Assembly: GCA_007844125.1 (NCBI GenBank)
Contig: CM017561.1
Location: 19,276,170 to 19,340,169 of the forward strand
Source of the DNA: Sinonovacula constricta
Lineage: Eukaryota > Mollusca > Bivalvia > Cardiida > Solecurtidae
Length of the DNA stretch: 64,000 nucleotides
Direction of reading: 5' to 3'
Positions 2,421-63,424 of the stretch are shown one piece after another. Under the pieces are notes generated by a model. That model had not been told where the DNA came from and made no database searches. It saw only the letters and a list, made by a program, of their open reading frames with translations. The first letter of the stretch is position 1; each line of letters opens with the position of its first letter. Both the position numbers and the translations under genes were made by a program.

Positions 2421-5370
2421 CAAGCATTGATATTTTCTTTCTATGTTTCTTTTTTCTTCATTGGCTCCTATGCTTGCTATCATTATTTTAAACCACGCGC
2501 TATTATACATTTATATTTGGTCTTTCCGAAGGTATGGTTTTACATACAATAAGGTCAGTCGGCCAAACGGTATGGTTTTCTTTTAATCTTGAATACACCT
2601 TTGAAGACAAAAGAAAAGGTCATTAACTCCGAACTAATGTTATCCACGTGATTCCAGCATCCGCCTGTTCAAAAAACGTTATACAGACCTTCGTTCAATT
2701 ATACATAAATACAAGTTTGTTGCATTGTTTGCATATACAATTAAAATCGACCAAGCGACAATCCGCAGATGTTATGACGTCTAACGACCATGTCCCACGT
2801 GTTAACATCCGACCATAAACGACTTTTTTCTATTATTTATTCAACAAACATTTGCATTGAAGCCGAATACAAAATCAGCGTTGTTGTTCAATTATTGAAA
2901 AAAGAAAAAAGAATAAGAAAGGCAGAATTTTACTGATGAATAATTGTAAACGATCATAAAGCTTCACGGAATATCAATGAAGCGGCTGAACAATCTTTTA
3001 CTTATGAATACATTGACTTGATAAACGATGATATTCAAGCTATTAAGTGGGGTAATTCCATGCAAACTGGGTATAATGATAAACATTAGGACAAAAACAA
3101 ATCAGTTCACGTTAGATTTTAAATAAGCAAAGCCGAATTATTTAATTTGTGACTTTAAGAGAGTTCATTTCTATTTTCTCCATCTGTAAGCTTAAATGCT
3201 TCTCTACTTTGTTTGTTAGTTCAGTTTCAAAATATTGAAGAATTTATCGTGTTCCAACATCAATCCTAACCTTACTTTGATCCAAAGTCAATCATGCAAA
3301 TAAAATTGAATAAGATCTATTCAAATTCACATATTTGTAGAATAAATGAAATCACATTATATTTAATTTTACTAAATCTTTATTGGTACCACAGATTATA
3401 AAAAATAAAAAAATAAAAGTAGAAGCGGAATTCAATCTTGGGTGATAAGTGGCTAATAAAAACCACCATAGAGACATTACCGCACTGAAAACATTTGTTT
3501 TTGCGAAATTGAGTTTTCATATCATAATGTGTCTCGGGCTTTGTACATACATATTTTGTTTATTTGGCATTAATTTACATTGTTGTTAACTAACCTACAA
3601 TATTTCGAGCGAAGCCTCTAGATGTGAAATAATGTTGTCGTATGCGTCGAGATTTTAACGTCGTGACGCTGGAATTTGGACGTTTAATGCAAACGTAACT
3701 ACCTCGTTGACGATATGACTTTTAAAATTTATTACACATGCCAGGGAAGGTGTTTGGGATACGAACATAGGTTCGTCAACAAAACAACATCCATTAAACT
3801 GTCCAAATGTCGATAACAATTTACCCTGTGAAACTATGACACATTCGCTTAATAAAAGTATGAACTTGAGTCACCTTGTTTATTCTCATGTGATTGAGAC
3901 ATAGAATTTCTTATGTATCACTTGGTAGTTGGTACTGTCGCATTTGTTATTTTTGTCTCAGATTAAAGTTGAAATCCATGTCATAAATTAGGTTGTCTGC
4001 TATCGCGTCCATTCTTCGGAACCCGCCTGAACTTACCGGTTTTGTGATGGGGGGATGGGGGTGGGAGGACGCACGAGAGAATGACCTTAGGTTCGAACGT
4101 GTTGAAGAATTGATGAAGGCGTCTACTTAAGTATATGCAAATTATGTTTGCACTTATCAAATAGTTACAACAGAAATCCAGTTTAAGCCACAAAGCGCTG
4201 TGACGTAGGTTGTGGTATAGCAAGGTAAATAATAATGCTCGATAACAAACAACAAACATGTTTTCCCAAATTTAGATAAAACAATGACTTTGGTCAACAG
4301 CTACCCAATATAATTCGAATCGTTGACAAATGCATTCATTTGGCCAGCTGCGAAAACGATGTCATTTATTAGAAGGAAAATAAAAATCTCATATTTATCA
4401 AAACACAATACGCCGCAATTACGATAAGGCAACGATAATAAATATAATCTCATATTTTATCAAATAAAATGAAAAAAATGGGTGCCATGTTTTAATTACA
4501 ACGACATAATTGTGAAGCTATGTATATGGTAATTGTACGACAATAATATTTTGCACGCATTTCAAAGGTCGGATTTATCTCACGTCTAGTTCACTTGTAT
4601 GTCAGTCGTAATGTCCTGACATACCTATATACCTCGGCTAGGCCTTATAATGATGCACTTAATATGTTTATAACACGAACTGAAATATAATATTTTGGCT
4701 AACAGCTTTTTTCAAATGTAATTAGATATTTCCAGAGCCAAAGAACAAGACATTAAGACCTAGATCAGTCGGCTCCTGTTGTGAACTAGCGAATCTCTGG
4801 TTAGTTTATGCATCAGTCTGATCAACACGTGCTTAGAAGTTTTAGAGTTAATATGCTGGTTAAATTGTTGACAATTTATCAAACAAAATGGCTTATTACT
4901 TCAATCTTACCGGATGTAACTTCTCACTTGACTAAGTGACCAAAAGAGCGAAACAGATAACTGGTTTACAAAGTAGATGGAGTTTAGATAAAATCGTACA
5001 ACGATCACTGTGTGATCTTAAACCATGACATTGATGATGTACAAATTCAACGCCATGAAATACAGTCATTATACTAGGTGATGATACTATATTTTGATGG
5101 TCTGATAACCATAAGCAATTACAGACAAGACGCTAGATTTAATGGTCCCATATAAATTCCGCTTGTATGTTTAGCAAAATTTAAGCATTGACTAACGATA
5201 GTTTTTGAAGTTCTATGCAAAGGCGACTAATATGACTTCAACTGAATTGCTATAAAGATTTACTTGTAGTTCAAAAGAGCAAAATGGCCGGAACGTCAAA
5301 CAAAGGTGTTCATCGAGAAGGGTGTAGTGATTGTGTTTGAGTTGTCAATACATTCCACTGGGCATTCTGG
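2421..5370. other. unique AT-rich DNA with one G-rich patch
   Basis: No gene was recognised. At 4049-4068 the plus strand carries runs of 6, 5, 3 and 2 G separated by one or two bases, a possible G-quadruplex. The two matches to AATCTCATATTT near 4384 and 4445 are too short to call a repeat. Confidence 0.45.
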
Positions 5371-13556: not shown

Positions 13557-13591
13557 CCCCCCCCCCCCCCCCCCCCCCCCACACACACACA
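13557..13591 (+). repeat. poly-C tract followed by (CA)n
   Basis: About 24 consecutive C are followed by (CA)5-6. The opposite strand is a long G run and could be hard to sequence accurately. Confidence 0.95.
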
Positions 13592-16497: not shown

Positions 16498-18720
16498 TTA
16501 ACCCCTCTTCATTTAACACTACCACGTGTTACCCCCTCTTCATTTAGCACTACCTCGTGTTACCCCCTCTTCATTTAGCACTACCTCGTGTTACCCCCTC
16601 TTCATTTAGCACTACTTCGTGTTACCCCCTCTTTAATTAGCACTACCTCGGGTTATCCTCTCTTCATTTAACACTACCACGTGTTACCCCCTCTTCATTT
16701 AACACTACCACGTGTTACCCTCTCTTCATTTAACACTACCTTGTGTTACCCCCACTTCATTTAACACTACCACGTGCTACCCCCTCTTCATTTAGCACGA
16801 CCTCGTGTTACCTCCTTGCATTTAACACTACCTCGTGTTACCTCCAATTCATCTAACCCTACCTCGTGTTACCTCTATATTTAACCCTACCTCGTGTTAC
16901 CCCCTCTTCATTTAACACTACTATGTGTTACCCCCTCTTCATTTAACACTACCACGTGTTACCCCCTCTTCATTTAGCACTACCTCGTGTTATCCCCTCT
17001 TCATTTTACACTACCATGTGTTACCCCCTCTTCATTTAACACTACCACGTGCTACCCCCTCTTCATTTAGCACTACCTCGTGTTACCCCCCCCCCTCTTT
17101 ATTTAGCACTACCTCGGGTTATCCCCTCTACATTTAACACTACCACGTGCTACCCCCTCTTTATTTAGCACTACCACGTGTTAACTCCTCTTCATTTAGC
17201 ACTACCACGTGTTACCTCCTCTTCATTTAGCACTACCTCGTGTTACCCCTCTTCATTTAGCACTACCTCGTGTTACCCCCTCTTTATTTAGCACTACCTC
17301 GTGTCACCCCCTCTTTATTTAGCACTACCACGTGTTAACCCCTCTTCATTCAAGACTACCACGTGTTACCCCATCTTCATTAAGCACTACCTCGTGTTAC
17401 CCCCTCTTTATTTAGCACTACCTCGTGTTACCCCCCTCTTTATTTAGCACTACCACGTGTTAACCCCTCTTCATTTAACACTACCACGTGTTACCCCCTC
17501 TTCCTTGAACCCTACCTCTTGTTACCCACTTTTCATTTAACACTACCACGTGTTACCTCCTCTTCATTTAACCCTATCTCTTGTCAACCCCTCTTCAATT
17601 AACCCTACCTCTTGTTATCCCCTCTACATTTAACACTACCTCGTGTTTTCCCCTCTTCACTTAACACTACCATGTGTTACCCCCTCTTCACTTAACACTA
17701 CCACGTGCTACCTCCTCTTCATTTAACCCTACCTCTTGTCACCCCCTCTTCATTTAACACTACCTTGTGTTACCCCCCTCTTCATTTAGCACTAACACGT
17801 GTTACCCTTCTTCATTTAACACTACCACGTGCTACCCCTCTTCCTTGAACCCTACCTCTTGTGATTCTCTCTTCATTTAAAACTACCACGTGTTATCCCC
17901 TTTCCATTTAACACTACCACGTGTTACCCCCTTTTTATTTAGCACTACCACGTGTTACCCCCTTTTCATTTAGCACTACCACGTGTTGACCCCTCTTCAT
18001 TTAACACTACCTCGTGTAACCCCCCCCCCCCATTCACTTAACACTACCATGTGTTACCCCCTCTTCACTTAACACTTAACACTACCACGTGCTACCTCCT
18101 CTTCATTTAACCCTACCTCTTGTCACCCCCTCTTCATTTAACACTACCTTGTGTTACCCCCCTCTTCATTTAGCACTAACACGTGTTACCCTTCTTCATT
18201 TAACACTACCACGTGCTACCCCTCTTCCTTGAACCCTACCTCTTGTGATTCTCTCTTCATTTAAAACTACCACGTGTTATCCCCTTTCCATTTAACACTA
18301 CCACGTGTTACCCCCTTTTTATTTAGCACTACCACGTGTTACCCCCTTTTCATTTAGCACTACCACGTGTTGACCCCTCTTCATTTAACACTTCCTCGTG
18401 TAACCCCCCCATTCACTTAACACTACCTTGTGTTACCTTTCTTCATTTAACTCTACCTCGTGTTGCCCACTCTTCATTGAACCCTACCTCGTGTAACCCC
18501 TTTATTGAATCCTTACTCTTGTTTCCTGTATTTTGTTTCACCTTACCTCGTGCTACCCTCAATCGTTTAACCCTACCTCATGTATGTCACTATTCGTTTA
18601 ACCCTACCCTGTATAACCGTTTAATAATATACTCGTGTTACCCCTGATTCGTTAGTACGCCTGTGTTACTCCCATCCCATTTAAACGTTTAACTCTATAT
18701 TTTTGTTACCCTACATTGTT
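16498..18720 (+). repeat. 31-bp minisatellite, CACGTG-rich, ~70 units
   Basis: The unit is about 31 bp, built on CCTCTTCATTTAGCACTACC followed by (A/T)CGTGTTACCC. Many units read ACCACGTGTTA, so the array holds more than 20 copies of the palindromic E-box CACGTG, alternating with CTCGTG variants. Units after about 18400 are increasingly degenerate. Internal C runs vary in length. Open frames at 16925-17137 and 18336-18647 are repeat by-products. Confidence 0.95.
17640..18400 (+). repeat. ~380-bp higher-order duplication inside the 31-bp array
   Basis: A run of about 12 variant units is repeated in the same order. CATGTGTTACCCCCTCTTCA occurs at 17671 and at 18048, offset 377. ACGTGTTGAC occurs at 17981 and 18365, offset 384. 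The 7-base difference is one extra AACACTT in the second copy. Shared rare variants (CTTGTGATTCTC, TAACACGTG) show block duplication rather than independent unit turnover. Confidence 0.9.
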
Positions 18721-30332: not shown

Positions 30333-30510
<178 letters not shown>

Positions 30511-30750: not shown

Positions 30751-30912
<162 letters not shown>

Positions 30913-36628: not shown

Positions 36629-39320
36629 CGTTTAAGAATGTTTTAACGGTCCATGTTTAAGTGTACCTTATCATAATGTTTTAACTGTCCATGTTTTAGT
36701 GGACTTTTTCCCAGTGTTTTAACGGTCCATGTTTTAGTTGACCTTATTAAAATCTTCATTATCCATGTTTAGTGGACCCCGTATTCATTTTAAGTGGACC
36801 TTATCAGAATGTTTTAGCTGTCCATGTTTAAGTGGAACTTATCCTAGTGTTTTAACCCTCCATGTTTTAGTGGACCTTATTAAAATGTTTACTATCCATG
36901 TTTAGTGGACCTTATCAGAATGTTTTCGAACCTTATCAGAATGTTTTAACTGTCAATGTTTTAGTGGACCTTATTAGAATGTTTTAACCGTCCATGTTTA
37001 AGTGGACCTTATCCTAGTGTTTTAACCGTCCATGTTTAAGCGGACCTTATCCTAGTGTTTTAACCGTCCATGTTTAAGTGGACCTTATCAGAATGTTTTA
37101 ACTGTCCATGTTTAAGTGGACCTTATCAGAATGTTTTAACTGTCCTTGTTTTAGTGGACCTTATCAGAATGTTTTAACTGTCCATGTTTAAGTGGACCTT
37201 ATCAGAATGTTTTAACTGTCCATGTTTAAGTGGACCTTATCAGAATGCTTTAACTGTCCATGTTTTAGTGGACCTTATCAGAATGTTTTAACTGTCCATG
37301 TTTAAGTGGACCTTATCCTAGTGTTTTAACTGTCCATGTTTTAGTGGACCTTATCAGAATGTTTTAACTGTCCATGTTTTAGTGGACCTTATCAGAATGT
37401 TTTAACTGTCCTTGTTTTAGTGGACCTTATCAGAATGTTTTAACTGTCCATGTTTAAGTGGACCTTATCAGAATGCTTTAACTGTCCATGTTTTAGTGGA
37501 CCTTATCAGAATGTTTTAACTGTCCATGTTTTAGTGGACCGTATCAGAATGTTTTAACTGTCCTTGTTTTAGTAGACCTTATCAGAATGTTTTAACTGTC
37601 CATGTTTAAGTGGACCTTATCCTAGTGTTTTAACTGTCCATGTTTTAGTGGACCTTATCAGAATGTTTTAACTGTCCATGTTTTAGTGGACCTTATCAGA
37701 ATGTTTTAACTGTCCATGTTTTAGTGGACCTTATCAGAATGTTTTAACTGTCCATGTTTTAGTGGACCTTATCAGAATGTTTTAACTGTCCATGTTTTAG
37801 TGGACCTTATCAGAATGTTTTAACTGTCCTTGTTTTAGTGGACCTTATCAGAATGTTTTAACTGTCCATGTTTAAGTGGACCTTATCAGAATGTTTTAAC
37901 TGTCCATGTTTTAGTGGACCTTATCAGAATGTTTTAACTGTCCATGTTTTAGTGGACCTTATCCTAGTGTTTTAACTGTCCATGTTTTAGTGGACCTTAT
38001 CAGAATGTTTTAACTGTCCTTGTTTTAGTGGACCTTATCAGAATGTTTTAACTGTCCTTGTTTTAGTGGACCTTATCAGAATGTTTTAACTGTCCATGTT
38101 TAAGTGGACCTTATCAGAATGTTTTAACTGTCCTTGTTTTAGTGGACCTTATCAGAATGTTTTAACTGTCCATGTTTTAGTGGACCTTATCAGAATGTTT
38201 TAACTGTCCATGTTTTAGTGGACCTTATCAGAATGTTTTAACTGTCCATGTTTTAGTGGACCTTATCAGAATGTTTTAACTGTCCATGTTTTAGTGGACC
38301 TTATCAGAATGTTTTAACTGTCCATGTTTTAGTGGACCTTATCAGAATGTTTTAACTGTCCATGTTTTAGTGGACCTTATCAGAATGTTTTAACTGTCCA
38401 TGTTTAAGTGGACCTTATCCTAGTGTTTTAACTGTCCATGTTTTAGTGGACCTTATCAGAATGTTTTAACTGTCCATGTTTAAGTGGACCTTATCAGAAT
38501 GTTTTAACTGTCCATGTTTAAGTGGACCTTATCAGAATGTTTTAACTGTCCATGTTTAAGTGGACCTTATCAGAATGTTTTAACTGTCCATGTTTTAGTG
38601 GACCTTATCAGAATGTTTTAACTGTCCATGTTTTAGTGGACCTTATCCTAGTGTTTTAACTGTCCATGTTTTAGTGGACCTTATCAGAATGTTTAAACTG
38701 TCCTTGTTTTAGTGGACCTTATCAGAATGTTTTAACTGTCCATGTTTAAGTGGACCTTATCAGAATGCTTTAACTGTCCATGTTTTAGTGGACCTTATCA
38801 GAATGCTTTAACTGTCCATGTTTTAGTGGACCTTATCAGAATGCTTAAACTGTCCATGTTTTAGTGGACCTTATCAGAATGCTTTAACTGTCCATGTTTT
38901 AGTGGACCTTATCAGAATGCTTTAACTGTCCTTGTTTTAGTGGACCTTATCAGAATGTTTTTAATGTCCATGTTTAAGTGGACCTTATCAGAATGCTTTA
39001 TCTGTCCATGTTTAAGTGGACCTTATCAGAATGCTTTAACTGTCCATGTTTTAGTGGACCTTATCAGAATGCTTTAACTGTCCATGTTTTAGTGGACCTT
39101 ATCAGAATGCTTTAACTGTCCTTGCTTTAGTGGACCTTATCAGAATGTTTTAATGTCCATGTTTTAGTGGACCTTATCAGAATGCTTTAACTGTCCATGT
39201 TTAAGTGGACCTTATCAGAATGCTTTAACTGTCCATGTTTTAGTGGACCTTATCAGAATGTTTTTAATGTCCATGTTTAAGTGGACCTTATCAGAATGTT
39301 TTAACTGTCCTTGTTTAATA
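36629..39320 (+). repeat. 38-bp minisatellite, ~70 units
   Basis: The unit reads TTTTAACTGTCCATG, then TTTTAGTGGACCTTATCAG, then AATG. The period is exactly 38 over long stretches (for example TGGACCTTAT at 37801 and 37839). Variants are CCTAGTG for CAGAATG, CCTTG for CCATG, TTTAAG for TTTTAG and GCTTTAAC. The first units (36629-36900) are more diverged and contain partial units. Stops in all frames rule out coding. Confidence 0.97.
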
Positions 39321-49697: not shown

Positions 49698-50908
49698 AGG
49701 CGGTATCCGACAGTTGGGATCAACATATATTTTCATTATATTGTTACGACCGATGTCGCTATTTAAGATTTATTTATACAATGGCACGTTTACTAACGAC
49801 GAAATGGTGTAATAGAAAGAACAAACCAGCAACAAACTAGTACAATAATGTTTTATTTTAACAATTAAATCTATGGCAGTAACAAAATAATAACAGATAT
49901 ATTATACGAAATTTGAGAATGCAAAATAAATGTTAGCTTACAGTTTGTCCCTTTAGGAGGTGTCCCTTTAATAGTCCAATTAATAATCCAACGTCGAATA
50001 ATCCTGAAGAGTTTTTGGTAGAATGTCCTCGTAGATACGCACAGTTGAGATAATCTAAAGGTAAAACAATACACGAATGTAATTAATATAATTCCAAATC
50101 CAACACTTTAATACTTATATCACTGTAGAATATAAGTCAACGTAAGTTTCAACACAGAAAGGTTTGATATAGAAGCTGCAAGTATTTCCAAACTATATGT
50201 CCAAACTTTATGTCCAAACCTAAACGTAATTCGACTAACAAGCCCTTATATAGACCCAAAAGAATTCTAGAACGCAGAGGTCTGCCAGAACAATCAGCGA
50301 AACCCAGTTAAAAATAAACAATTTCATTTTCTAGCATGATCCCTTTTCTTTCTAGCTGTTACGCGAACTGCTACGTCATCATTAATACTACAACGGTAAA
50401 CAAACCCTTAACCTGACTTGCGTAACCTTAAACGCTGGTGTACTACTGTACATAACAATATATTATAATAAACCATTGTCACTTGAACAGATATTGCAAA
50501 TTGCTGTTTATTGATGTCCTACACCTGTCTGACAAGTGAACCATAACGCCGCAATCCATCATTCCAAACATGGCTTTCCTATCTGAGCCACGCTGCACAG
50601 TTAGCTACTTTTACACTAAGAAAACCACGTGACTACTTATGTTTTAGCTGATCCACGTCATCCGCTGTGGCGTCGATGTCTTTTTTTAGCAGAATTCCCA
50701 ATTGTTCTTATTCATAGATTTGAAAATGATGAAGATTTAAGTTTTGATTAACTAGTTTTACTGACGTAAAATTGAGAGATACTGCTGAAAATCGTCAAAG
50801 CTTAGGCTAAAGTATGATTTTTTTCTGCAGAAATTATGTACAAATACCAAAATAAAGATAACATATTGTTACATATATTAGATTTGGGCAAACTGTCGGA
50901 TACCACCT
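49698..50908 (+). mobile_element. TTAA MITE with nested solo LTR
   Basis: TTAA flanks at 49694-49697 and 50909-50912. The left end AGGCGGTATCCGACAGTTGG pairs with the right end CAAACTGTCGGATACCACCT. Removing the nested LTR and one ATAT leaves about 491 bp, close to the 505-bp copy at 35120-35624, and the two align throughout. The LTR lies between ATTTTCATT and the AT-rich start of the MITE right part. The right end lies about 20 bp before the first 24-bp array. Confidence 0.88.
49742..50457 (+). mobile_element. solo LTR, 716 bp
   Basis: It starts TGTTACGACC and ends CATAACA, giving TG...CA ends within a TGTTA/TAACA inverted pair. ATAT directly repeats on both sides (49738-49741, 50458-50461). 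Inside, a TATA-like CCTTATATAGACCC lies at about 50243-50256 and an AATAAA signal at 50313-50318, in the right order for U3-R-U5 on the plus strand. There are no internal genes, primer-binding site or second LTR, so this fits recombination between two LTRs. The sequence start resembles Gypsy-type LTRs, but the superfamily is not proven. Confidence 0.75.
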
Positions 50909-50927
50909 TTAAATTTGTTTATTTATA

Positions 50928-51388
50928 TATTTGTTTTAAGTTGGATATATTTGTTATATGATAGTTGGATATGTTTGTTATATGATAGTTGAATATGTTT
51001 GTTATGATAGTTGAATATGTTTGTTATAAGATAGTTGGATATGTTTGTTATATGATAGTTGAATATGTTTGTTATATGATAGTTGGATATGTTTGTTATA
51101 TGATAGTTGGATATGTTTGTTATATGATAGTTGGATATGTTTGTTATATGATAGTTGGATATGTTTGTTATATGATAGTTGGATATGTTTGTTATATGAT
51201 AGTTGGATATGTTTGTTATATGATAGTTGGATATGTTTGTTATATGATAGTTGATATGTTTGTTATATGATAGTTGGATATTGTTGTGTTATAATAGTTG
51301 GATATGTTTGTTATTATTTGGATATGTTTGTTATATGCTAGTTGGATATGTTTGTTTCTATCATAGTTTTATATTTTGTTATATGATA
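50928..51388 (+). repeat. 24-bp array A, C-free
   Basis: The 24-bp unit has the core GATAGTTGGATATG followed by TTTGTTATAT. About 16-18 units, the first and last few degenerate. The plus strand has no C from 50908 to 51337. Because 24 is a multiple of three, the frame 50989-51270 encodes an octapeptide repeat of the type CYMIVGYV. It lies directly after the MITE right end. Confidence 0.95.
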
Positions 51389-51744
51389 TTGCCTCTGTTT
51401 CTTCTCTGCTCGTTGGCTCTGTTTGTTCTGCTCTTGCCTGTTTGTTCTCTGCTCGTTGGCTCTGTTTGTTCTCTGCTCGTTGGCTCTGTTTGTTCTCCTC
51501 TCGTTGCTCTGTTTGTTCTCTGCTCGTTGGCTCTGTTTGTTCTCGCTCGTTGGCTCTGTTTGGTCTCTGCTCGTTGGCTCTGTTTGTTCTCTGCTCGTTG
51601 GCTCTGTTTGTTCTCTGCTCGTTGGCTCTGTTTGTTCTCTGCTCGTTGGCTCTGTTTGTTCTCCGCTCGTTGCCTCTGTTTGTTCTCTGCTCGTTGGCTC
51701 TGTTTGTTCTCCGCTCGTTGGCTCTGTTTGTTCTCTGCTCGTTG
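51389..51744 (+). repeat. 24-bp array B, A-free, an A-to-C image of array A
   Basis: The 24-bp unit has the core GCTCGTTGGCTCTG followed by TTTGTTCTCT. Compared with array A, all six A positions are C and the other 18 positions are identical. The plus strand has no A for 356 bp. About 15 units; a few lack one to several bases (for example 51430-51440, 51515, 51541). Leu/Phe/Cys-rich frames on the plus strand and a Gln/Arg/Asn-rich minus frame (51379-51822) are by-products. Confidence 0.97.
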
Positions 51745-51775
51745 ATAGTTGGATATGTTTGTTATATGATATTTA
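51745..51775 (+). repeat. residual unit of 24-bp array A
   Basis: After array B the sequence returns to GATAGTTGGATATGTTTGTT and then TATATGATA before unique DNA. Array B is therefore embedded inside array A. Confidence 0.9.
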
Positions 51776-52883
51776 ATAATAAAGCAGTTGTATTTGGGGT
51801 GGTCGCCATAAGACAACCACATCTGTTGTTTTACGCGTGTGATAACATGTTCAAATTATACTTTATTATTTATAATTATTTTCCTAATTTGTGTAGATAT
51901 TTATGTCACATATGAAACTTTGATGTCGACTTTCGTGACTAACTAAAATACACAAACAAGTCACGACATAATTAGCATTGTTTGTTTGCCCTTTAAGATA
52001 TCATTATTTTTTCCCAACAAATTATCCAGTTATGTGATCAAGGGTTGTTTTAATTAACATCATGACTATGTAGTTAGATGAATATTCACATAAAATAACA
52101 AAATAAAAATAAAAACACACAACATTTATAGGTATATAAAGAGAAGTAAATATGAGATTCAAAACAATGCGGGGTATTACTTTTGCCTCGATATATATGG
52201 ATTGAAAGATAAACCCCCAAAACATGTCCTTGTAGATAATATTGAAGATAAACCGTACTGTCATATTCATAGGGCCATATACATTACAGTACACGTTCCT
52301 TTATATAGGTCCTGGTTAGCACTTATCAGAAATCAAACTCTTCAAATACTTTCTTGCCAATGTGTGCTGTTTTTCTGTCAAATTTACATTTGCTGTCTCA
52401 GTTTGCTTTTGAAATTGAAGAAAGTGATTGAAAATGTTATCATCATTTCAGAACATTTTTGCAAACATATCTGTGATCCGATATTATTGCCTACTGTTGG
52501 GCCAATACAGTTTCGGTTTTTGGCCAAAGTCACTGGAGTCCTTTACAAACCTAGGGTGACGCTCCAACATTTACTCAGCATTTAATAATTCTGTTCGAGT
52601 TAATTTACAATACATTCAACATAAAATCATTCCTTTCACCGCAAAATAGAAAAATGAAACATATACGTTTCCTAATCAAACTATTATTATTCTATTTATA
52701 TTGGGATGTGTATAACAAGAACATATCTACAAGTAATTGGCCCCAGTTATGTGATCTGTATTGTTTTGGTATACATCTTTTGTACCTTTGTATTCGGGAC
52801 ATTGATCTTGATGTTGAGTAATCTTCGTACGTGTGCTTCTTGCCCATACTGTCTGTAGTCCGTTTCATATGCTGTCGTATTTG
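51776..52883. other. unique AT-rich DNA
   Basis: A 127-codon plus frame at 52202-52585 has no recognisable domain and AT-driven composition, so it is not called a gene. Confidence 0.4.
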
Positions 52884-55400
52884 ATACCAATATCTGGTCG
52901 TAGAATGACGCTGACACCAATATCTGGTCGTAGAATGACGCTAACACCCAAATCTGGTCGTAGAATGGCGCTGACACCAATATCTGATCGTAGAATGGCG
53001 CTGACACCAGTATCTGATTGTAGAATGACGCTGACACCAGTATCTGGTCGTAGAATGGGTCTGACACCAATATCAGGTCGTAGAATGACGCTGACACCAG
53101 TATCTGATCGTAGAATGACGCTGACACCAGTATCTGGTCGTAGAATGGGTCTGACACCAATATCAGGTCGTAAAATGACGCTGACACCAATATCTGGTCG
53201 TTGAATGGCGCTGACACCAATATCTTGTCGTAGAACGACGCTGACACCAATATCTGGTCGTTGAATGGCGCTGACACCAATATCTTGTCGTAGAATGACG
53301 CTGACACCAATATCTGGTCGTTGAATGGCGCTGACACCAATATCTTGTCGTAGAATGGCGCTGACACCAGTATCTGGTCCTAGAATGACGATGACACCAA
53401 TATCTGGTCGTAGAATGACGCTAACACCAATATCTGATCGTTGAATGGCGCTGACACCAATATCTGATCGTAGAATGGCGCTGACACCAATATCTGGTCG
53501 TAGAATGGCGCTGACACCAATATCTGATCGTAGAATGACGCTGACACCAATATCTGATCGTAGAATGGCGCTGACACCAATATCTTGTCGTAGAATGGCG
53601 CTGACACCAATATCTGGTTCTAGATTGGCGCTGACACCAATATCTGGCCGTAGAATGGTGCTGACACTAATATCTGGTCGTAGAATGGCGCTAACACCAA
53701 TATCTTGTCGTAGAATGGGGCTAACACCAATATCTGATCGTAGAATGGCGCTGACACCAATATCTGGCCGTAGAATGACGCTGACACCAATATCTGGTTC
53801 TAGATTGGCGCTGACACCAATATCTGGCCGTAGAATGGTGCTGACATTAATATCTGGTCGTAGAATGACGCTGACACCAATATCTGGTCGTAGAATGTCG
53901 CTAACACCAATATCTAATCGTAGAATGTCGCTAACACCAATATCTGATCGTAGAATGGCGCTGACACCAATATCTGGTCGTAGAATGACGCTGACACCAA
54001 TATCAGGTCGTAGAATGGCGCTGACACCAGTATCTGATCGTAGAATGACGCTGACACCAGTATCTGGTCGTAGAATGGGTCTGACACCAATATCAGGTCG
54101 TAGAATGGCGCTGACACCAGTATCTGATCGTAGAATGACGCTGACACCAGTATCTGGTCGTAGAATGGGTCTGACAGCAATATCAGGTCGTAGAATGACG
54201 CTGACACCAATATCTGGTCGTTGAATGGCGCTGACACCAATATCTTGTCGTAGAACGACGCTGACACCAATATCTGGTCGTTGAATGGCGCTGACACCAA
54301 TATCTTGTCGTAGAATGACGCTGACACCAATATCTGGTCGTTGAATGGCGCTGACACCAATATCTTGTCGTAGAATGGCGCTGACACCAATATCTGGTCC
54401 TAGAATGACGATGACACTAATATCTGGTCGTAGAATGACGCTAACACCAATATCTGATCGTAGAATGGTGCTGACACTAATATCTGGTCGTAGAATGGCG
54501 CTAACAACAATATCTTGTCGTAGAATGGGGCTAACACCAATATCTGATCGTAGAATGGCGCTGACACCAATATCTGGCCGTAGAATGACGCTGACACCAA
54601 TATCTGGTTCTAGATTGGCGCTGACACCAATATCTGGCCGTAGAATGGTGCTGACATTAATATCTGGTCGTAGAATGACGCTGACACCAATATCTGGTCG
54701 TAGAATGTCGCTAACACCAATATCTAATCGTAGAATGTCGCTAACACCAATATCTGATCGTAGAATGGCGCTGACACCAATATCTGGTCGTAGAATGACG
54801 CTGACACCAATATCAGGTCGTAGAATGGCGCTGACACCAATATCTGGTCGTAGAATGACGATGACACCAATATCTGGTCGTAGAATGACGCTAACACCAA
54901 TATCTGGTCGTAGAATGTCGCTAACACCAATATCTGATCGTAGAATGGCACTGACACCAATATCTGATCGTAGAATGACGCTGACACCAATATCTGATCG
55001 TAGAATGGGGCTAACACCAATATCTGATCGTAGAATGGCGCAGACACCAATATCTTGTCGTAGAATGGCGCTGACACCAATATCTGGTTCTAGATTGGCG
55101 CTGACACCAATATCTGGCCGTAGAATGGTGCTGACACTAATATCTGGTCGTAGAATGGCGCTAACACCAATATCTTGTCGTAGAATGGGGCTAACACCAA
55201 TATCTGATCGTAGAATGGCGCTGACACCAATATCTGGCCGTAGAATGACGCTGACACCAATATCTGGTTCTAGATTGGCGCTGACACCAATATCTGGCCG
55301 TAGAATGACGCTGACACCAATATCAGGTCGTAGAATGGCGGTGACACCAATATCTGGTTCTAGATTGGCGCTGACACCAATATCTGGTCCTAGAATGGCG
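52884..55400 (+). repeat. 30-bp minisatellite, 84 units, no indels
   Basis: The unit reads TATCTGGTCGTAGAATGGCG then CTGACACCAA. TATC recurs every 30 bp from 52891 to 55381 without a single length change, although most units carry substitutions. Recurrent variants are GATCG, TTGTCG, AGGTCG, GGCCG, GGTTCTAGATT and GTTGAATGG. The last unit ends 5 to 8 bp before the MITE at 55409. Confidence 0.98.
52981..55330 (+). repeat. higher-order duplications within the 30-bp array
   Basis: Blocks of variant units recur: TATCTTGTCGTAGAACGACG at 53221 and 54241 (offset 1020, 34 units); the GGTTCTAGATT block at 53791 and 54601 (offset 810, 27 units); and the block at 53611 again at 55081 (offset 1470, 49 units). 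The change from 1020 to 810 reflects loss of 7 units (about 53451-53660) from the second block. Confidence 0.9.
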
Positions 55401-56546: not shown

Positions 56547-58370
56547 GTATTCGAGTACAATATACAACTGGGCGACCATGTGGTAAAGTCTGAGTATCTA
56601 GTACAATTGAGCGACCATGTGGTAGAGTCTGAGTACCATGTACAACTGAGCGACCATGTGGCAGAGTCTGAGTACCATGTACAATTGGGCGACCATGTGG
56701 TAGAGTCAGAGTACCATGTACAATTGGGCGACCATGTGGTAGAGTCTGAGTACCATGTACAATTGGGCGACCATGTGGTAGAGTCTGAGTACCATGTACA
56801 ATTGTGCGACCATGTGGTAGAGTCTGAGTACCATGCACAACTGGGCGACCATGTGGTAGAATCTGAGTACCATGCACGGCTGGGCGACCATGTGGTAGAG
56901 TCTAAGTACCATGCACAACTGGGCGACCATGTGGTAGAGTCTGAGTACCATGCACAACTGGGCAACCATGTGGTAGAATCTGAGTACCATGCACAACTGG
57001 GCGACCATGTGGTAGAGTCTGAGTATCATGTACAACTGAGTGACCATGTGGTAGAGTCTGAGAAACATGCACAACTGGGGCGACCATGTGGCAGAGTCTG
57101 AGTACCATGTAGAATTGGGCGACTATGTGGTAGAGTCTGAGTACCATGCACAACAGGACGACCATGTGGTAGAGTCTGAGTACCATGTACAACAGGGCGA
57201 CCATATGGTAGAGTCTGAGTACCATGCACAACTGGGCGACCATGTGGTAGAGTCTGCGTACCATGTACAACAGGGCGACCATGTGGTAGGGTCTGAGTAC
57301 CATGTACAACAGGGCTACTATGTGGCAAAGTCTGGGTACCATGCACAAATGGCGACCATGTGGTAGATTCTGAGTACCTAGTTCAACAGGGCGACCATGA
57401 GGTAGAGTCTGAGTACCACGTACAACAGGGCGACCATGTGGCAGGGTCTGAATACCATGTACAATTGGGCGACCATGTGGTAGAGTCTGAGTACCTAGTT
57501 CAACAGGGCGACCATGTCTTAGAGTCTGAGTACCACGTACAACAGGGCGACCATATTGTAGAGTCTGAGTACCATGCACAACTGGGCGACCATGTGGTAG
57601 AGTCTGAGTACCATGTACAACAGGGCGACCATGTGGTAGAGTCTGAGTTCCATGTACAACTAGGGCGACCATGTGGCAGGGTCTGAGTACCTAGTTCAAT
57701 TGGGCGACCATGTGGTAGAGTCTGAGTACCTTGTTCAACAGGGCGACCATGTCGTAGAGTATGAGTGCCACGTACAACAGGGCGACCATATTGTAGAGTC
57801 TGGGTACCATGCACAACTGGGCGACCATGTGGTAGAGCCTGAGTACCATGTAAAAAGGGGCGACCATGTGGAAGAGTCTAAGTACCATGTAAAAAGGGGC
57901 GACCATGTGGAAGAGTCTGAGTACCATGCACAACTGGGTGACCATGTGGAAGAGTCTGAGTACCATGTACAACAGGGCGACCATGTGGAAGAGTCTAAGT
58001 ACCATGTACAATTGGGCGACCATGTGGTAGAGTCTGAGTACCATGTACAACTGAGCGACCATGTGGTAGAGTCTGAGTTCCATGTACAACAGGGCGACCA
58101 TGTGGTAGAGTCTGAGTTCCATGTACAAAGGGGCGTCCATATGGTAGAGTCTGAGTACCATGCACAACTGGGCGACCATGTGATAGAGTCTGAGTACCAT
58201 GTACAACTGAGCGACCATGTGGTAGAGTCTGAGTTCCATGTACAAAGGGGCGTCCATATGGTAGAGTCTGAGTACCATGCACAACTGGGCGACCATGTGA
58301 TAGAGTCTGAGTACCATGTACAACAGGGCGACCATGTGGAAGAGTCTGAGTATCATGAACAAAGGGGCGT
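56547..58370 (+). repeat. 39-bp minisatellite, ~46 units
   Basis: The unit reads ACCATGTGGTAGAGTCTGAG, then TACCATGTACAACTGGGCG. 39 is a multiple of three, so long frames exist on both strands. The plus strand encodes a 13-residue repeat of the type HVVESEYHVQLGD. That frame is broken by three single-base length changes near 57077 (extra G), 57347 (lost base) and 57661 (extra G), giving four consecutive plus frames between 56526 and 58401. Minus frames encode VHGTQTLPHGRPV-type repeats. I treat all as by-products. Confidence 0.96.
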
Positions 58371-61290: not shown

Positions 61291-63424
61291 TAAGATTGAC
61301 GACAGTTGGTTGGCTAGATTGACGACAGTTGGTTGGCTGGATTGACGACAGTTTGTTAGTTGGCTAGATTGACGACAGTTGGTTAGTTGGCTAGATTGAC
61401 GACAGTTGGTTAATTGGCTAGATTGACGACAGTTAGTTAGTTGGCTAGATTGACGACAGTTGGTTAGTTGGATAGATTGACGACAGTTAGTTAGTTGGCA
61501 AGATTGACGACAGTTGGTTGGCTAGATTGACGACAGTTGGTTGACTAGATTGACGACATTTGGTTGGCTAGATTGACGACAGTTGGTTGGCTAGATTGAC
61601 GGCAGTTGGTTGACTAGATTGACGACATTTGGTTGGCTAGATTGACGACAGTTGGTTGGCTAGATTGGCGACAGTTGGTTGGCTAGATTGACGACAGTTG
61701 GTTGGCTAGATTGACGAACAGTTGGTTGGCTAGATTGACGACATTTGGTTGGCTAGATTGACGACAGTTGGTTGGCTAGATTGACGACAGTTGGTTGGCT
61801 AGATTGACGACATTTGGTTGGCTAGATTGGCGACAGTTGGTTGGCTAGATTGACGACAGTTGGTTGGCTAGATTGACGACAGTTGGTTGGCTAGATTGAC
61901 GCAGTTGGTTGGCTAGATTGACGACATTTGGTTGGCTAGATTGACGACATTTGGTTGGCTAGATTGGCGACAGTTGGTTGGCTAGATTGACGACAGTTGG
62001 TTGGCTAGATTGACGACAGTTGGTTGGCTAGATTGACGACATTTGGTTGGCTAGATTGACGACAGTTGGTTGGCTAGATTGACAACAGTTGGTTGGCTAG
62101 ATTGACGACAGTTGGTTGGCTAGATTGACGACAGTTGGTTGGCTAGATTGACGACAGTTGGTTGGCTAGATTGACGACAGTTGGTTGGCTAGATTGACGA
62201 CAGTTGGTTGGCTAGATTGACGACAGTTGGTTGGCTAGATTGACGACCGTTGGTTGGCTGGAATTTGACGACATTTGGTTGGGCTAGATTGACGACAGTT
62301 GGTTGGCTAAGAATTGACGACAGTTGGTTTGGCTTAGATTTGACGACAGTCTGGTTGGCTAGAATTGACGACAGGTTGGTTGGCTAGATTTGCGACAGTT
62401 GAGTTGGCTAGATTGACGACAGTTGGTTTGGCTAGATTTGACGACAGTTGGTTGACTAGATTGACCGACAGTTGGTTCGCTAGAGTTGGACGACAGTGGT
62501 TGGCCTAGATTTGACGGACAGTTGGTTGGCTAGCATTGACGGACAGTTGGTTGGCCTAGATTGACACCAGTTGGTTTGACTAGATTGACGACAGTTTGAG
62601 TTCGGCTAGATTGACGACAGTTGGTTGGCTCCGATTGACGACAGTTGGTTGGCTACGATTATGGACAGTTGGTTGTCTAGATTGACAGACATTTGGTTGG
62701 GCTAGATTGACGACAGTTGCTTGGCTAGATTGCCGACAGTTGGTTGGCTAATTGACGACAGTTGGTTGGCTAGATTGACATGACGTTGGTTGGCTAGATT
62801 GACGACAGTTGGTTGGCTAGATTGACGACAGTTGGTTGGCTAGATTGACGACATTTGGTTGGCTAGATTGACGAAAGTTGGTTGACTAGATTGGCGACAG
62901 TTGGTTGGCTAGATTGACGACAGTTGGTTGGCTAGATTGACGACAGTTGGTTGGCTAGATTGACGACAGTTGGTTGGCTAGATTGACGACGTTGGTTGGC
63001 TAGATTGACGCAGTTGGTTGGCTAGATTGACGACAGTTGGTTGGCTAGATTGACGACAGTTGGTTGGCTAGATTGACGACAGTTGGTTGGCTAGATTGAC
63101 GACAGTTGGTTGGCTAGATTGACGACAGTTGGTTGGCTAGATTGGCGACAGTTGGTTGGCTAGATTGGCGACAGTTGGTTGGCTAGATTGACGACAGTTG
63201 GTTGGCTAGATTGACGACAGTTGGTTGGCTAGATTGGCGACAGTTGGTTGGCTAGATTGACGACAGTTGGTTGGCTAGATTGACGACAGTTGGTTGGCTA
63301 GATTGGCGACAGTTGGTTGGCTAGATTGACGACAGTTGGTTGGCTAGATTGACGACAGTTGGTTGGCTAGATTGGCGACAGTTGGTTGGCTAGATTGACG
63401 ACAGTTGGTTGGCTAGATTGACGT
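61291..63424 (+). repeat. 23-bp minisatellite, ~90 units
   Basis: The unit reads GATTGACGACAGTTGG then TTGGCTA. Early units (about 61335-61500) include a 27-bp form with an extra TTAG. Common variants are ACATTTGG for ACAGTTGG and GGCGAC for GACGAC. The period is not a multiple of three and no long frame results. A 12-bp word, TTGACGTGGGTT, flanks the array on both sides (61244-61255 and 63418-63429). Confidence 0.97.
62250..62785 (+). other. indel-rich patch inside the 23-bp array
   Basis: Within these ~535 bp nearly every unit carries a one-base insertion, deletion or miscall (GGAATTTGACG, GGGCTAG, GGCTTAGATTTG, CAGTCTGG, GACCGACAG, GGACAG). Units on both sides are almost perfect. The abrupt edges point to unpolished long-read sequence rather than biology. 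Confidence 0.75.

Follow-up and report, generated by a model that had tools for sequence, protein, structure and literature searches.

A nested minisatellite block in which each A of the adjoining 24-bp unit is written C

In yeast, uracil that replaces thymine is excised by Ung1, and Rev1 with Pol zeta then inserts mainly C, giving A>C (T>G) changes (PMC6063437, PMC6420880). In the available passages of these papers, the change is A:T to C:G, as at the locus described here, and it is strand-specific if the uracil lies in one strand; it differs in having been scored at a reporter stop codon and not at every A of a tract. Kataegis, as described in the available parts of two reports (PMC6786661, PMC8850194), also changes one base class along one strand of a tract, but the APOBEC clusters change cytosines, whereas the changes here are at A, if the array that contains A is the older one. 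A technical likeness comes from nanopore sequencing of telomeres, where an array is written as a second array beside the true repeat, according to strand (Tan et al. 2022, PMC9414165). The passages of that report at hand give TTAGGG read as TTAAAA, and CCCTAA read as CCCTGG or CTTCTT; at this locus, by contrast, the change is from A to C, the unit has 24 bp and the borders are fixed. Minisatellites with nested sub-arrays resemble the locus in their common period, local homogenisation and degenerate edges. Other sub-arrays of the same genome differ from it: three adjacent diverged sister arrays of 26–27 bp (L022:8521-9998) carry mixed substitutions and follow no complete one-letter rule, and they serve as the contrast of ordinary sub-arrays. 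APOBEC mutation clusters are incomplete. Diversity-generating retroelements, which need a reverse transcriptase and a template repeat, limit mutation to template adenines, a likeness to the present case, but convert A to any base, which is a difference. We found no report of the tract-wide rewriting of a whole base class on one strand in a literature search that covered mostly titles and the openings of abstracts. A search combining hypermutation, tandem repeats and A-to-C transversion returned no literature, and the titles and abstract openings retrieved for cytosine-replaced minisatellites, A-to-C clustered mutation and adjacent minisatellite arrays held nothing relevant. To our knowledge, no natural process turns every A in even 24–48 bases into C.

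The window, which is the whole stretch of 64,000 nucleotides that was analysed, corresponds to contig C7:19276170-19340169 in a 1.22-Gb assembly of 177 contigs. It contains a minisatellite, array A (50930-51388), with the 24-bp unit TTTGTTATATGATAGTTGGATATG, and directly beside it a second minisatellite, array B (51389-51744), with the 24-bp unit TTTGTTCTCTGCTCGTTGGCTCTG. In both, the copies stand head to tail at a single locus, with a TRF period of 24, copy numbers of 20.7 and 15.1, and a lag-24 identity of up to 1.0. The features of the locus are as follows.

50930..51388, plus strand: array A, 24-bp minisatellite; seven consecutive perfect units at 51068-51235, degenerate from about 51259 to 51388
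51327..51350, plus strand: array-A unit with one A-to-C change at rule position 12; the sole partial unit among 24 near-full units
51351..51397, plus strand: degenerate transition with isolated C at 51358 and 51362 and the border unit at its end; partly read directly
51389..51744, plus strand: array B, unit A with each A written C, 356 bases; 15.1 copies (TRF)
51745..51775, plus strand: array-A sequence after B, about 1.3 units; partly read directly

The two units differ at positions 7, 9, 12, 14, 20 and 22, and every one of these differences is A>C. Comparison of the units confirmed the claim of the earlier note that all six A positions are C in array B and that the other 18 positions are the same. 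When the 12 one-letter rules were applied on both strands, A>C alone left no difference between the units, with six differences remaining under the next best rule. In its 356 bases, block B has 176 T, 95 C and 85 G but no A, which agrees with the A-free 356 bp described earlier; no A-free run in the window is longer, the next longest having 63 bases. Array A had been described as free of C for 430 bp. A run of this length exists (50908-51337, with 124 bases for the next longest in the window), but it includes about 20 bases of the left flank, and array A itself extends to 51388, with three C in its final 51 bases, which are degenerate. A long run that lacks one letter is not special on its own: a 25-bp array on contig C18 (about 21.78 Mb; stretches L003-L008), several kilobases long, continues for up to 1656 bases without a G on its plus strand. 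The relation between units A and B is exact, and ordinary divergence is unlikely to have produced it.

Array-A units are found on both sides of B, so that B is nested in array A, and the earlier observation that array A resumes after B holds. At the right junction of B, the phase of the units is broken and about 16 bases are missing. The A-to-C replacement, which had been called complete, is nearly so. Among the 24 near-full units, 12 have A at all six positions, 11 have C at all six and one has a single C (51327-51350, near the left border); none carries two to five of the six changes. The border unit at 51375-51397, which lies outside this tally, is split, with four A letters followed by two C letters. 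Perfect B units are located at 51441-51488 and 51512-51535. The lag-24 identity is 0.98–1.0 in the bins starting at 51045-51165 and 0.92–1.0 in those starting at 51549-51669, and is lower in between; as this measure falls with single-base length changes, and some B units have 23 bases, the trough inside B is due in part to indels and not to divergence of letters. The plainly degenerate stretch from about 51259 to 51440 contains the letter switch and separates the perfect array-A units from the regular part of B, which suggests two blocks that were amplified separately. A coding function was also considered, but searches for tRNA (ARAGORN, bacterial code) and in Rfam gave no match, and neither did Pfam, which was run on 10 of the 70 open stretches that reach 85 aa or more. 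Secondary structure was considered as a cause and set aside, 120-base pieces from both strands of A and B folding no better than shuffles. Four inverted pairs surround the locus. In two of them, one arm falls within the degenerate end of array A and its partner about 700–770 bases further on (85–86% complementarity, in AT-rich DNA); they were given no weight.

The variants within the two blocks bear on how many units were converted. The eight substitutions in 50930-51350 are to A (five), T (two) and C (one); the eight in B are to C (six), T (one) and G (one), with none to A. Both blocks vary at positions 10 and 19, where array A has changes to A and B has changes to C; one dinucleotide deletion and one G deletion are likewise common to both. 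Under uniform models, at least two shared substitution types have P of about 0.03 and at least two shared deletion types P of about 0.05; these values depend on hand-picked variant types, those of array A taken from its interior, and slippage would raise the P for deletions. The absence of A among the five distinct B substitution types is weak on its own (P 0.12–0.16). Once C is relettered, only two of the eight B haplotypes are present exactly in array A, one of them being the consensus. The alignment of relettered B with A scores 597 (334/353 columns); B without relettering scores 172, and the best of the other rules gives 199. The possibility that B duplicates one particular stretch of array A was discarded, since a shuffled order of units scored as well in 31 of 300 trials. 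There is modest support that some variants of B resemble array-A variants with A written C, and more than one unit may therefore have been converted. The regular repeats of B agree with the earlier proposal that a single unit changed and was amplified afterwards; the B variants that resemble relettered variants of array A agree with it less well. The evidence leans towards a conversion that hit a patch already holding variants.

When the assembly was searched with up to three mismatches, all 11 matches of unit B and 13 of the 17 matches of unit A were located at this locus (all counts are lower bounds). The remaining four matches of unit A are isolated and have three mismatches each; reversed-pattern controls give three and five. 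At this threshold, the 1.22-Gb assembly contains no further array of either unit, and B therefore probably arose in place. A 450-base query from array A gave 37 matches in its own genome, some of them inside the locus. The best match outside, the 25-bp array on C18, was rejected as a relative; its edit distance to unit A is 7, which 22 of 200 shuffles equalled. A scan of viral contigs with the translated block confirmed no relative.

Our statements on frequency rest on a sample of 264 kb, consisting of the window and 200 kb from a single chromosome, in 20 stretches of which 18 were spread over its length and two adjoin the window. The search for other shadow arrays suggested in the earlier note was run on this sample and yielded simple-sequence cases and nothing else. 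The test for one-letter relations covered 79 arrays and 4943 two-unit windows, using wide flanks and eased thresholds; a version with short flanks missed all cases, this locus included. Of its 39 flags, 29 belong to this locus, nine to a poly-A run in a AGAAAGAG-type array and one to a position beside a T-rich simple repeat, and no second non-trivial relettered array was flagged among the 79 arrays in 264 kb. A 14-base pair in sampled stretch L024, flagged by the consensus-level test, was no better than shuffles. The same stretch has, near 5303-5348, a poly-A run of about 46 inside a AGAAAGAG-type array.

The explanation that we tentatively prefer, while keeping considerable doubt, is that a short patch of array A underwent A-to-C conversion on one strand and was amplified later, with uracil chemistry as the best fit. 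Array B would be genuine, a nested block belonging to the same minisatellite as array A. In a patch of one to a few array-A units, each A of the plus strand would have become C, the conversion taking place on one strand in a single event or a close series. The patch would then have multiplied to about 15 units by the usual expansion of tandem repeats. In the minus strand, uracil would have been built in where thymine belongs, and its removal by uracil-DNA glycosylase would have left abasic sites, opposite which a Rev1-type polymerase would have inserted C. The change observed, A>C (T>G) on one strand, at six of six unit positions and with no A left in the block, has the direction expected from uracil, abasic sites and Rev1. 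Because abasic sites receive a C opposite them in this pathway, the lean of the B variants to C might have the same origin. A>C also results when 8-oxo-dGTP is misinserted opposite A. The letter rule in the assembly, the degenerate zone and, as far as the search reached, the confinement of both arrays to this locus are direct observations on which the explanation builds. We infer that the sequence is correct, that conversion preceded amplification and that the chemistry was of this kind; array A is assumed to be the older state from its position on both sides of B. A wider form of the event, in which the whole tract was rewritten at once, would need several minus-strand units loaded with uracil, excision of all of it and a Rev1-like insertion of C opposite each gap, followed by amplification. 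We regard this form as improbable.

Both broad options of the earlier note, a base-specific process and an artefact, still stand, and the artefact is a serious rival to patch conversion. The true sequence would be array A throughout, and a stretch of it would have been relettered during base-calling or consensus building because of similar instrument signals. A change that is total, limited to one letter and strand-specific has the look of a labelling error. According to the passages available of two papers, nanopore base-callers write telomere repeats as different ones, depending on the strand, because the current profiles are alike (PMC9414165), and an AAGGG repeat is partly called AAGG (PMC9606279). 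As array A is without C over 430 bases, a caller would have little local contrast between A and C; a mixed consensus could account for the garbled stretch that precedes B, and relettering would fit the B variants that look like array-A variants. Against a signal-based error, B has fixed borders in a consensus of many reads. Identical 24-bp units flank the switch, so an error of this type should not start and stop at fixed places in the consensus. The letter switch also sits in a degenerate zone, with a phase break at the right junction, and the C18 array, which likewise lacks one letter, is free of relettered blocks in six overlapping stretches (longest A-free run 13 bases, longest T-free run 18). 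Nanopore-only consensus usually shortens long homopolymers, but here they are kept: the window has a run of 24 C, and the 200 kb include C/G runs of 22, 23 and 27 as well as a single A/T run of 46. The number of A/T runs above 9 drops in the same 200 kb, which points weakly towards a nanopore consensus; overall, the homopolymer lengths lean against a nanopore-only one. An A-to-C repeat error was absent from the passages of the nanopore literature that were examined, and no telomere arrays were present at 13 ends of 11 contigs. We think an artefact possible but doubtful.

Stepwise divergence would make B an ordinary sister sub-array, in which six substitutions occurred one by one, all from A to C by chance, and the intermediates were lost in homogenisation. 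Homogenisation does remove intermediate repeat units, and a unit with a single A-to-C change persists near the left border of B. Diverged sister sub-arrays also occur in this genome. The 264-kb sample holds 44 near pairs of arrays with like period, of which 21 seem to be homologous; 11 of the 21, this locus among them, lie at 12–40% divergence. Under a uniform model, the probability that six random substitutions fall on exactly the six A and are all to C is 1.0e-8 per diverged pair, or 1.2e-7 if any of the 12 one-letter rules is allowed. Scaled to the genome, the 11 pairs become about 5e4, a rough figure since several derive from one array. On these figures, chance would produce about 5e-4 to 6e-3 cases genome-wide, well below one; this expectation applies to one genome and would rise if more genomes were screened, and we regard it as an order of magnitude only, because the pairs are non-independent and the uniform model is crude. 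Moreover, A-to-C is normally among the rarer substitutions, and near-full units with two to five changes have left no trace among the 24. Stepwise divergence is thus an unlikely origin of B.

If the sequence is correct, the locus is a record of a mutation event that changed every base of a single class along one strand, throughout a tract, and it would offer a natural test case for how a large genome bypasses DNA loaded with uracil. Should the block prove to be an artefact, it shows that relettering of whole repeat blocks can find its way into an assembly whose contigs reach 97 Mb and be taken for biology. The raw reads deserve inspection before any biological claim is made.

The window is rich in minisatellites, with further arrays at 16498-18500, 36930-39316, 56553-58369 and 61293-63423 (31, 38, 39 and 23 bp, respectively; about 47 to 90 copies). 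A 30-bp array with 84 copies is located at 52882-55400 and has open frames of 857 aa on the minus strand and 380 aa on the plus strand. As its period is a multiple of three, these long frames on both strands are probably a by-product of the repeat. The run of 24 C is at 13557-13580. Two AT runs of 116 and 100 bases are found at 30340-30500 and 30760-30900, both inside a 402-bp direct duplication; the first lies between inverted copies of the same 20-odd bases (ATACCAATTATGCAATCCAATAT), in a cruciform-like arrangement.
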